Shown here: positions 5,159 to 28,880 of the stretch, one piece after another
How the letters are laid out: every line of letters begins with the position of its first letter
Numbering within the stretch: the first letter of the stretch is position 1
Source: Bradyrhizobium sp. WSM471
GTDB lineage: Bacteria; Pseudomonadota; Alphaproteobacteria; Rhizobiales; Xanthobacteraceae
Reading direction: 5' to 3'
Assembly: GCF_000244915.1 (NCBI RefSeq)
Contig: NZ_CM001442.1
Location: 6,770,012 to 6,834,011, forward strand
DNA length: 64,000 bases
Position numbers and translations under genes: made by a program
Notes under the pieces: model-generated
What the model saw: only the letters and a program-made list of their open reading frames with translations
What the model was told of the DNA's origin: nothing
Database searches by the model: none

Positions 5159-5278
5159 CTCTCACCCTCTCCCCCTGCGGGGGTTCTCTCAGCCCGCGAA
5201 CCTCTCGCTTTCGAGCTCGCTGAAGCAACCCCTCATCCGGCGCTTCGCGCCACCTTCTCCCGCAAGGGGAGAAGGGAA
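5159..5278. repeat. Palindromic repeat, family B copy 1
   Basis: A two-part inverted element: CTCACCCTCTCCCCCTGCGGGGG at one side and CCCCTCATCCGGCGCTTCGCGCC...CTTCTCCCGCAAGGGGAGAAGG at the other. It fills the gap between the convergent DUF2927 and methyltransferase genes. Related copies lie at 10263, 15250, 28729, 32550 and 59617. Confidence 0.8.
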
Positions 5279-6205: not shown

Positions 6206-7333
<1,128 letters not shown>

Positions 7334-7606
7334 GGCGGTCTCCAAGGAAGACGATGAGGTTGGCGATAGGGCAAAGGCGATCTGTACGTTTGGTTTGATG
7401 ACACGTTTTGTCCGGAAACTCGACGACCGCCGCGCAACCCGTGCACCGCCCCTTGAAAACGTGAAAACCATAATTACTTCATCAGCTTACGGCGATGGCA
7501 GCGAGCTCCGCCAGTGCGGTGGCGTGGCACTCGGGCAAGCGCTGCCGGGTCGCGGGATGACGGGAATTTGGCCGCGAGCCGCCCTGCCCCGCGCAGCACG
7601 ATTAAC

Positions 7607-7732: not shown

Positions 7733-8989
7733 ATGAGCCGCGCGAACCGTACCGACCACATCCGCCTGACCTCCCATCCGGAGCCGGGCAGGACAGCCGC
7801 CTTCCCGATCCACTGGGGCGCCGCCGACGCACGCGCCCGCGGGCCGATCATCGGCACGGTGTCGCGCGCCGGGGATCGCAACGTGATCGGCAGCCATGGC
7901 GGCTCCTATGCGATGTACCGCGCGCTCGCGGTGTCCGCCGGCGCACTCGATCCGATCCGGCGTCCCGACCTCACCAATACCTTTCCGGCCGCCACCATCG
8001 GGCCGTTTCCGCAATGGAGCGATCCCGCCAAGATCGTCGCGCTCGATCCCTGGGGGCATCTCGTCGCCGAGAATTTCGGCAAGGACATCGCTGAGGGCAT
8101 CGACATCAGGCCGAGCATCGCGGTGACGCGTGCGCGGCTGGACCTGCCGGAGATCCGCGAGGCGCTCGCCGCCAAGCGCCTGCGCGCCGACGGCGACGTC
8201 GTGCACGCCAATGGCAGCGTGTCGGTGGTGAAGATCGCGATCGATCCGGTCTGGTATCTGCCGGGTCTTGCGGAGCGCTTTGCCACCAACGAGACCGAGC
8301 TGCGGCGCACGCTGTTCGAGCAGACCGCCGGCATGTTCCCTGAGCTCGTGACCCGGCCGGACATGAAGGTGTTTCTGCCACCGATCGGCGGCACCACCGT
8401 CTACATGTTCGGCGATGTCACCAAGCTGCCGGACCACCGCACCAAGATCACCTGCCGGGTGCATGACGAGTGCAACGGCTCCGACGTGTTCGGCTCCGAC
8501 ATCTGCACCTGCCGCCCCTACCTCATTCACGGCATCGAGGAATCCGCGCGCGGCGCCCAGGAGGGCGGGCTCGGGCTCGTGATCTACAACCGCAAGGAAG
8601 GCCGCGCGCTCGGCGAGGTCACGAAATTCCTGGTCTACAATGCGCGCAAGCGCCAGGAAGACGGCGACGCGGCCGCCGCCTATTTCGAGCGCACCGAATG
8701 CGTCGCCGGCGTCCAGGACGCGCGTTTCCAGCAATTGATGCCGGATACGATCCACTGGCTCGGCCTGAAGCGCATCGACCGCTTCCTGTCGATGAGCGAC
8801 ATGAAGCACGACGCGCTGACCTCTCAGGGCATCGACATTGTCGAGCGCGTGCCGATCCCGCCCGAGCTCATTCCCGCCGACGCCTATGTCGAGATCGCCG
8901 CGAAGAAGGCCGCCGGCTATTACTCCACCGACATCGCGCCGGAGAAGGACGTCGACGGCGTGGTCGGGCGTTCGCTGGAAAAATACTGA
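7733..8989 (+). CDS. GTP cyclohydrolase II-like protein of the URC uracil-degradation type
   Basis: A protein of 418 residues; the start is fixed by GGGAG 7 bases upstream. The C-terminal half is a GTP cyclohydrolase II domain: zinc ligands Cys247, Cys258 and Cys260 (HDECNGSDVFGSDICTC), the active-site stretch YNRKEGRALGE, and a conserved tail (RFLSMSDMKHDAL). It is far longer than RibA (about 200 residues), with an extra N-terminal region of about 210 residues, and it has CTCRPYL where RibA has CDCGxQL. These features fit the URC1 group, needed for uracil breakdown in Lachancea kluyveri, rather than riboflavin synthesis. The next gene starts 8 bases after the stop and encodes the URC4-type partner. 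Confidence 0.85.
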   Translation: MSRANRTDHIRLTSHPEPGRTAAFPIHWGAADARARGPIIGTVSRAGDRNVIGSHGGSYAMYRALAVSAGALDPIRRPDLTNTFPAATIGPFPQWSDPAKIVALDPWGHLVAENFGKDIAEGIDIRPSIAVTRARLDLPEIREALAAKRLRADGDVVHANGSVSVVKIAIDPVWYLPGLAERFATNETELRRTLFEQTAGMFPELVTRPDMKVFLPPIGGTTVYMFGDVTKLPDHRTKITCRVHDECNGSDVFGSDICTCRPYLIHGIEESARGAQEGGLGLVIYNRKEGRALGEVTKFLVYNARKRQEDGDAAAAYFERTECVAGVQDARFQQLMPDTIHWLGLKRIDRFLSMSDMKHDALTSQGIDIVERVPIPPELIPADAYVEIAAKKAAGYYSTDIAPEKDVDGVVGRSLEKY

Positions 8990-8996
8990 TCGATTG

Positions 8997-10235
8997 ATGG
9001 CAGACGCTTTGGAATTGCAGGCCCGTTCCCTGCTCAGCGCAGCAGCGGTTCGCGCGCGTGCCGGCGAGATGCTCGAGATCGGCCTGAACGGAGGGCTGAC
9101 GCACTTCACGATCGATCTCGATCGCATGGACGGCGTTGCCGACGCCGTGTTGGCTGTTACGCGAAAAGCCTATCCCACGCTGGAGATTCCGTTCCATGCG
9201 CGCTGGCGGCATTTCGTGCTCGGCGGCGTCGACCGTTGGGCGCGGCTTGCGGATTCGGCGTCATGGACCGATCGCGCGGCACGGGCGCGCGCGGAGTTCG
9301 ACCTTGCCATCGTCAGCGTGCTGCTCGATGCCGGCGCGGGTGCGGCGTGGCGATACCGCGACGCTGTGACGGGACAAAGCATCGGCCGATCCGAAGGACT
9401 GGCGATTGCAAGTCTCGACATGTTCGCGAGCGGTCTTTTTTCCCACGATGCCCGCGCGCCTTTCAGGGCCGATGCCGACGTGCTCGCGCAACTGCCGCTC
9501 GCCGCGCTCACTCCGGCCTTTCAGGTGAGCGATGCCAATCCGCTGCTCGGGCTCGAGGGGCGGACCGATCTGCTGCGGCGTCTGGGCAAGCTGGTGGCGG
9601 AGCGCGCGGACGTGTTCGGCTCGCACGACACGCCGCGGCCGGGCGGGCTGTTCGATCACATCGCGGCACAGGCGAAGGGCGGCGCGGTTCCCGCGCCCGC
9701 GATCCTATCGGCGGTGCTGAACCAGCTCGGACCGATCTGGCCGTCGCGGCTCGAGCTTGCCGGGATTCCGCTCGGCGATTGCTGGCGCCATCCGGCGATC
9801 AAGGCCAGCGATGCCACCTCGGGCCTCGTGCCTCTGCACAAGCTGTCGCAATGGCTGAGCTATTCGCTGATCGAGCCGCTGCAGCGCGCCGGAATTGACG
9901 TCACCGACATCGACGGCCTGACCGGGCTGGCCGAATATCGCAATGGCGGCCTGTTCGTCGATCACGAGGTGTTGCGCCTGCGCGACGCCGCTGACGCCGA
10001 ACATGCGCATGCGGTGGACTCCCTGCTCGTCGTCGAGTGGCGCGCGCTGACGGTGGCGCTGCTGGACCGGCTCGCCGAACTGGTTCGCGCAAAACTCGGC
10101 CGCACCCCTGAAACATTGCCGCTCGCCAGCATTCTGGAAGGCGGCACCTGGGCCGCGGGCCGCGCGATCGCCTTCGCGCGCCGGCCCGACGGTTCGCCGC
10201 CGCTCACGGTGATCAGCGACGGCACGGTGTTCTAG
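8997..10235 (+). CDS. DUF1688 (URC4-like) protein
   Basis: A protein of 412 residues, starting 7 bases after the preceding stop. Family marks as I recall them are VPLHKLSQWLSYSLIEP, GLTGLAEYRNGGLFVD and a GDCWRHP-like segment. DUF1688 proteins are known as URC4 in the fungal uracil catabolic pathway; their chemical step is not established. There is no signal peptide and no transmembrane segment, so it should be cytoplasmic. Tight linkage to a URC1-type GTP cyclohydrolase II homologue and to a uracil phosphoribosyltransferase homologue is the expected bacterial arrangement for this pathway. Confidence 0.88.
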   Translation: MADALELQARSLLSAAAVRARAGEMLEIGLNGGLTHFTIDLDRMDGVADAVLAVTRKAYPTLEIPFHARWRHFVLGGVDRWARLADSASWTDRAARARAEFDLAIVSVLLDAGAGAAWRYRDAVTGQSIGRSEGLAIASLDMFASGLFSHDARAPFRADADVLAQLPLAALTPAFQVSDANPLLGLEGRTDLLRRLGKLVAERADVFGSHDTPRPGGLFDHIAAQAKGGAVPAPAILSAVLNQLGPIWPSRLELAGIPLGDCWRHPAIKASDATSGLVPLHKLSQWLSYSLIEPLQRAGIDVTDIDGLTGLAEYRNGGLFVDHEVLRLRDAADAEHAHAVDSLLVVEWRALTVALLDRLAELVRAKLGRTPETLPLASILEGGTWAAGRAIAFARRPDGSPPLTVISDGTVF

Positions 10236-10262
10236 TCTCTCGTTCGAGTTCGCGGAAACAGA

Positions 10263-10340
10263 CCCCTCATCCGGCGCTTCGCGCCACCTTCTCCCACATC
10301 CGCCTTCGCCAAGGCTTCGGCGGACATAAGGGGAGAAGGG
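10263..10340. repeat. Palindromic repeat, family B copy 2
   Basis: CCCCTCATCCGGCGCTTCGCGCC, then CTTCTCCC and, after a 30-base insert carrying its own CGCCTTCG.../...CGAAGGC-like arms, GGGGAGAAGGG. It separates the DUF1688 gene from the uracil phosphoribosyltransferase homologue inside what is otherwise a gene cluster, so it may fold in the shared mRNA. Confidence 0.75.
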
Positions 10341-10391
10341 AAGCATCGGCCCGTCGCGTTTCACCCAAGTGCATTTCGTTAGGAGCGTTCC

Positions 10392-11021
10392 ATGCAAGGC
10401 GTTACGATCGTCGATCATCCGCTGGTGCAGCACAAGCTGACCCTGGTGCGGGACAAATCGATCTCGACCAAATCGTTTCGGGAGCTGATCAAGGAGATCG
10501 GCATGCTCCTGTGCTACGAGGTGACGCGCGACCTGCCGCTCGCCGATACCGTCATCGAAACGCCGCTGGCGACGATGCATTCGGCCAAGATCGCGGGCAA
10601 GAAGCTGGTATTCGTGCCGATGCTGCGCGCCGGCACGACCTTCGTCGACGGCATGATGGACCTGGTGCCGACCGCGCGCGTCGCCCATATCGGACTCTAT
10701 CGTGAGCCGCACAGCTTTGCGGCGGTCGAGTACTTCTTCAAATCGCCGTCCGATCTCAGCGAGCGCCTGGCGATCGTGGTGACGCCGGTGGTTGCGACCG
10801 CCAACACGGCTGTGGCCGCAATCGACCGGCTCAAGGAGCGCGGCGCCAAGGATATTCGCCTCGCCTGCCTGATCGCCGCCCCCGAAGGGCTCGAGCGGCT
10901 GCGCGGACTGCATCCTGACGTCCCGATCTGGACGGCCGCGGTGGACGAAGGTCTCGACGAGAACGGCTTTATCCTGCCGGGCCTCGGGGACGCCGGCGAC
11001 CGCGCCTACGGGACAAGATAG
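10392..11021 (+). CDS. upp: Uracil phosphoribosyltransferase homologue with altered PRPP loop
   Basis: A protein of 209 residues, the usual length of uracil phosphoribosyltransferase (UPRT; uracil + PRPP to UMP). The uracil-binding C-terminus is intact ([16 protein letters not shown]), as is [14 protein letters not shown]. The PRPP-binding loop, normally DPMLATGGS, reads TPVVATANT (residues 131-139): the acidic residue and both glycines are gone. The flexible loop normally containing YEE/EP also differs ([13 protein letters not shown]). The context with URC1- and URC4-like genes fits a role in uracil breakdown. Whether it still makes UMP is open; it could use another substrate or be regulatory. 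The symbol is given by homology only. Confidence 0.8.
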
Positions 11022-11100: not shown

Positions 11101-11310
11101 ATGACCTATCAGGATGACCGCAGGGCAGACAGAGCACGCCGCAACAGCCCGGTGGGCTGGGCGATCGGCGCGATCTTCGTGATCGCCGTGGTCGCGGCCG
11201 TCTTCTTCTACAATGGACGCGACGTCGGTCCGCAGACCACGACCTCCAGCCCGAACAACGCGCCGAGCGTCACCACCGGATCGAACCCGCCTGCTGCGCC
11301 CGCGAAATGA
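11101..11310 (+). CDS. Small single-pass membrane protein
   Basis: A protein of 69 residues. The start at 11101 is favoured over an ATG 12 bases upstream because GGAGAG sits at the right distance. A charged N-terminus (about 16 residues, Arg/Asp-rich) is followed by one hydrophobic helix (residues 18-38, VGWAIGAIFVIAVVAAVFFY) and a Thr/Ser/Asn/Pro-rich tail of about 30 residues, probably periplasmic. I know of no family function. It stands alone between the uracil gene set and the convergent M48 peptidase gene. Confidence 0.65.
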   Translation: MTYQDDRRADRARRNSPVGWAIGAIFVIAVVAAVFFYNGRDVGPQTTTSSPNNAPSVTTGSNPPAAPAK

Positions 11311-28728: not shown

Positions 28729-28880
28729 TCCCTCTCCCCTTGCGGGAGAGGGTGGCTCGCCGCAAAGCGGCGAGACGGGTGAGGGGTTCTCTCCTCGAGT
28801 CCAACTCTCATTCGAATTTGCGGAGAGATACCCCTCATCCGGCGCTTCGCGCCACCTTCTCCCACAAGGGGAGAAGGAAG
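28729..28880. repeat. Palindromic repeat, family B copies 4 (double)
   Basis: CCCTCTCCCCTTGCGGGAGAGGGTGG followed by GCTCGCCGCAAAGCGGCGAG, and then CCCCTCATCCGGCGCTTCGCGCC...CTTCTCCCACAAGGGGAGAAGG. It lies between the convergent ycjF and glycosyltransferase genes. Confidence 0.8.

Follow-up and report, generated by a model that had tools for sequence, protein, structure and literature searches.

A conserved URC1-URC4-UPRT cluster in Bradyrhizobium sp. WSM471 and a proposed N-glycosidase role for its DUF1688 protein

Here, we examine three adjacent genes of Bradyrhizobium sp. WSM471, which lie in a stretch of 64,000 nucleotides (the window; G000:C1:6770012-6834011) from a genome assembled as a single contig of 7.78 Mb and which resemble the URC genes for uracil degradation. 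All three are on the + strand:

7733..8989, + strand: URC1, a GTP-cyclohydrolase-II-like protein of 418 amino acids, proposed UTP cyclohydrolase (NF005536, GTP_CH_N, GTP_cyclohydro2, C247/C258/C260, 7EEV/7EJ3)
8997..10235, + strand: URC4 / DUF1688, 412 amino acids, proposed N-glycosidase of 5-phosphoribosyl-urea
10392..11021, + strand: URC6-type uracil phosphoribosyltransferase (UPRT), 209 amino acids (NF001097, TIGR01091, tree placement)

URC1 runs from an ATG at 7733 to a stop at 8989, and the ATG of URC4 follows at 8997, 7 bases past that stop. These coordinates, as well as the C-x10-C-x-C motif at URC1 residues 247/258/260, agree with an initial annotation that had been made from the sequence and its reading frames.

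Gene families and conservation of the cluster

The initial annotation had read the locus as the core of the URC pathway, and the three families, their order and this reading hold when judged by profiles and linkage. The profile search that it had suggested for the first two proteins matches URC1 to GTP_CH_N (265 bits) and GTP_cyclohydro2 (46.1 bits), and URC4 to DUF1688 (488.9 bits, cut-off 25). The UPRT exceeds the cut-offs of both NF001097 (269 bits, cut-off 114) and TIGR01091 (249.7 bits, cut-off 208.35). URC1, URC4 and UPRT are thus linked in the manner that defines a URC uracil-degradation gene set.

This linkage recurs widely. A scan of genome contigs for URC4 took in the best 80 of 309 relatives; at these 80 loci, URC1 is directly upstream of URC4 on the same strand at 78, UPRT is directly downstream at 78, and both flank it at 76. 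In a phylum sample of 398 genomes from 212 genera (own genome included), DUF1688 is present in 26 genomes and 15 genera, with URC1 upstream at all 26 loci, UPRT downstream at 23 and both at 23; among the DUF1688-free rows listed, with 352 rows lying outside, the nearest is of the same order. Because 76/80 and 23/26 loci have both neighbours, the arrangement is beyond chance. Both samples together hold seven incomplete loci: a contig edge lies within 60 bases of URC4 at two (L037, L010), no UPRT is found in the 1.5 kb covered past URC4 at two others (L004, L013), and in the stretches covered L069 and L074 lack a nearby URC1 and L096 lacks a UPRT. The best-ranked named loci are from Bradyrhizobium, with URC4 identities of 83-96% (L027-L055).

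URC4 also occurs in 13 of 72,556 records of a plasmid collection, one of them from Gordonia. Three plasmid regions annotated by RefSeq (Gordonia p174, Azospirillum TSH58_p04 and Pseudoroseomonas pL11-A) name it "URC4/urg3 family protein", each inside the trio "GTP cyclohydrolase II - URC4/urg3 family protein - upp", with the same genes, order and strand as in the window and a URC4 identity of about 55% (Azospirillum TSH58, Pseudoroseomonas) or 50% (Gordonia); a fourth region, from Cupriavidus, carries no annotation. A URC pathway comprising URC1, URC4 and URC6 was reportedly described in Lachancea (Saccharomyces) kluyveri by Andersen et al. in 2008, together with the bacterial linkage of the three. 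Since the trio recurs across relatives and annotated plasmids, the cluster is one more instance of a gene set that is already known: the bacterial three-gene set highlighted by the initial annotation is present, but it is not new, RefSeq having already annotated it.

URC1 and the riboflavin question

URC1 matches NF005536, a model itself named "GTP cyclohydrolase II", with 747.3 bits (cut-off 403) over residues 3-418 of its 420-residue frame, and falls far below the RibA models TIGR00505 (48 bits, cut-off 205.85) and NF001591 (57.4 bits, cut-off 148). Assignment to canonical RibA, which the initial annotation had named among the results that would refute its reading, is rejected on these cut-offs. 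Two Protein Data Bank entries titled UTP cyclohydrolase, 7EEV and 7EJ3, are similar across URC1 residues 8-415 (phmmer E about 3e-172), at 51-52% identity in structural alignment.

What URC1 does share with canonical RibA is its putative active site. Of its cysteines (241, 247, 258, 260 and 323), C247/C258/C260 align, along with Y302, D329 and R331, to C54/C65/C67, Y105, D126 and R128 of 2bz0, and the zinc ligands and Tyr/Asp/Arg are invariant in 34/34 sequences. In RibA we take the C-x10-C-x-C cysteines to be zinc ligands and the Tyr/Asp/Arg residues to be catalytic. GTP cyclohydrolase II (GCH II) makes two C-N cuts that remove C8 of GTP as formate. By analogy, our reading of URC1 is that it would perform a reaction of the GCH II type in which the uracil ring replaces the imidazole and the C4-C5-C6 unit is cut out.

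Could the first gene instead be a RibA serving riboflavin synthesis, with the uracil link secondary? Besides URC1, the genome has a single GCH2 match, the C-terminal portion of a RibB fusion (L129 3337-4638; G000:C1 about 2697336-2698637). This GCH2-like domain contains no cysteine at all and so lacks the zinc ligands, which would leave room for such a role. Against it stand the RibA cut-offs given above and the relatives. In all five URC4-free relatives checked (G004, G028, G051, G055, G103) the sole GCH2 match likewise lacks the zinc motif within the gene frame. The absence of a zinc RibA therefore extends beyond this genome, and two URC4-bearing genomes (G091, G012) carry a zinc-motif GCH2 in a further protein. 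We consider a riboflavin role highly improbable, and the related idea that URC1 stands in for a missing riboflavin enzyme was rejected, the gap being equally present in those 5/5 relatives.

Predicted fold and putative active site of URC4

The predicted fold of URC4 is that of Qng1 (DUF2419; 7U07, 7U91, 7UGK and others), shared over most of the chain at 16-21% identity. The active-site lysine and acid are in register: K282 of URC4, which is invariant, falls on Lys199 of Qng1, and Glu313 sits where Qng1 has Asp231 in every sequence aligned. Qng1 cleaves the N-glycosidic bond of queuosine 5'-monophosphate, and its deposited complexes carry this nucleotide as ligand. URC4 differs from Qng1 in having a longer chain, in belonging to another Pfam family and in its linked genes, which point to a uracil-derived substrate. 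Weak sequence matches of URC4 to ankyrin/DARPin proteins were discarded, being unsupported by the fold search.

The fold, profile and residue evidence points to URC4 being an N-glycosidase, which narrows the step that the initial annotation had called unsettled to a candidate reaction. We propose, and consider fairly likely, that DUF1688/URC4 represents a branch of the helix-hairpin-helix glycosylases that acts on small molecules: a 5-phosphoribosyl-urea N-ribosyl hydrolase in which a Lys-Glu pair replaces the Lys-Asp of Qng1. It would release urea from what is left of a nucleotide, much as bases are removed from DNA by base-excision enzymes. The choice of substrate follows from the glycosidase candidate adjoining a putative UTP-ring-opening enzyme and a UPRT. 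We make no claim that URC4 belongs to the Qng1 family PF10343 (Q_salvage), only that it would work like Qng1. Q_salvage itself was matched in 0/299 phylum genomes, where control queries were likewise without a match, and in 1/369 genomes of another class, that one match being the bridge to the Qng1 sequences. At L174 (3-887 and 1495-2475), a Q_salvage gene has near it a frame that looks, by eye, nucleoside-hydrolase-like.

A proposed uracil degradation pathway

We consider it likely that the cluster is the core of a URC uracil-degradation pathway running through five steps, whose substrates and products we infer from families, linkage, predicted fold and residues. UPRT would first join uracil and phosphoribosyl pyrophosphate to give uridine monophosphate (UMP), a role suggested by its family, and general kinases would then raise UMP to the triphosphate (UTP). 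In the third step the zinc enzyme URC1 would bind UTP, free pyrophosphate and hydrolyse the two C-N bonds that flank C4-C5-C6, giving 5-phosphoribosyl-urea and malonic semialdehyde. URC4, as a helix-hairpin-helix/Qng1-type glycosidase, would cleave the N-glycosidic bond by means of K282 and E313, releasing urea and ribose 5-phosphate. Finally, enzymes encoded elsewhere in the genome would clear the products: urease, and either a dehydrogenase or a reductase of the semialdehyde.

Urea and 3-hydroxypropionate are the reported products of the URC pathway, which a urea-releasing URC4 step would fit. The genome encodes a urease alpha subunit and has a match to TIGR01722 (MMSDH; 652 bits, cut-off 448.5). 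In Lachancea kluyveri the same three protein families are at work and urea is handled by urea amidolyase. Bradyrhizobium has an operon-like set, and a urease that could serve this step. As for other routes, nothing in the genome exceeds the cut-off of RutA (best 54.1 bits, cut-off 498.3) or of NF006183 (31.8 bits, cut-off 335), which is presumably a dihydropyrimidine dehydrogenase subunit.

A different division of labour would have URC1 open the ring only at N3-C4, with the URC4 glycosidase freeing ribose from N-ribosyl-ureidoacrylate 5'-phosphate and the free ureidoacrylate breaking down into malonic semialdehyde plus either urea or carbamate. The evidence that URC4 is a glycosidase fits this order equally well. 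We nevertheless regard it as unlikely, given that GCH II makes two C-N cuts and that URC1 retains the zinc and catalytic residues of that enzyme. The gene neighbourhood also speaks against it, there being no further family regularly linked to the trio: when 2313 mechanically called open reading frames within 7 kb of URC4 at 48 of the 80 loci were clustered, everything besides the trio and apparent shadow frames was present at 12 or fewer of the 48, and the commonest extra family, at 12/48, looks by eye like a TctC-type binding protein.

Several observations weigh against the five-step pathway with URC4 as its glycosidase. The putative catalytic acid is Glu in all 56 distinct URC4 rows examined (42 + 20, 6 shared) and Asp in Qng1. 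PF10343 gave no match to URC4 at E <= 10, DUF1688 alone being reported, in a search where few matches with E above about 0.1 pass the HMMER filters, and DUF1688 profiles gave no match to PDB sequences at E <= 10. The Qng1 side of the profile comparison holds two sequences only, and hhalign with one alone returns a probability of 4.5 (E 0.009). A shared fold, moreover, leaves the substrate unfixed. For URC1, UTP as substrate comes from the titles of 7EEV and 7EJ3 only, whose depositors name the molecule "GTP cyclohydrolase II", and the predicted structure has only intermediate confidence (pLDDT 71.1). The scan for alternative routes covered RutA and NF006183, but neither the oxidative pathway nor hydantoinase-type genes. 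The Glu in place of Asp and the unmatched PF10343, together with a chain of 412 residues against 315-344 in Qng1, would favour URC4 not being a glycosidase at all, its Qng1 fold having been put to another use, such as hydrolysing a ureido group or acting together with URC1 as a binding or scaffold protein. With K282 and the acid position in register over a shared fold, we hold this to be quite improbable and retain the N-glycosidase proposal.

The gene set itself is already known; the initial annotation read it correctly, and to this reading we add a concrete, testable proposal for the unsettled step. If the proposal for URC4 is true, that step of uracil degradation can be assigned a specific reaction and candidate residues and followed with a simple enzyme assay, while the DNA-glycosylase fold gains a member that was so far a domain of unknown function. 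NF005536 would then deserve a new name, since its present label conceals a uracil enzyme.

UPRT copies and surroundings of the cluster

In a tree of 64 of 129 UPRT rows, kept after thinning, the linked UPRT groups only with other URC-linked UPRTs, apart from the unlinked Upp clade of its genus. The URC-linked label needs at least three changes on this tree, and the URC-linked UPRTs fall into more than one clade. All 11 unlinked rows from the genus of the window form one set (100/99), with 3 unlinked rows from other families placed elsewhere. The genome has a second UPRT at 6385206 (293.6 bits to NF001097), and because it falls within this unlinked set, the genome may use one UPRT for salvage and another for degradation. 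Among 16 genomes of the genus, this one included, UPRT is without a match at E <= 0.001 in 2 and has a single weak match below the cut-off in 2 others; judged from these sequences, some members of the genus seem to lack a UPRT.

Upstream of the trio, on the opposite strand, lies a gene for a pyridoxal phosphate-dependent enzyme (6206-7471). Downstream of UPRT there is a 69-residue frame on the + strand (11101-11310), followed on the other strand by genes for an M48 peptidase and a DUF898 protein. The profiled neighbours include no transporter or regulator. The Azospirillum plasmid differs in this respect: past its trio (L134 7946-13116) are genes on the same strand for a BMP-family protein, an ABC transporter and an amidohydrolase, which might be a nucleoside or base uptake operon.

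The interval between URC4 and UPRT holds one copy of a dispersed intergenic repeat:

10236..10391, no strand: URC4-UPRT gap of 156 bases, containing the repeat with its core at 10272-10295

No inverted repeat of at least 12 bases is present in 10230-10395. The 24-base core, CGGCGCTTCGCGCCACCTTCTCCC, is identical at 5238-5261, 10272-10295 and 28840-28863, three copies in the window against 0 in 100 shuffles. After each core copy comes AAGGGGAGAAGG, a potential pairing partner of CCTTCTCCC.
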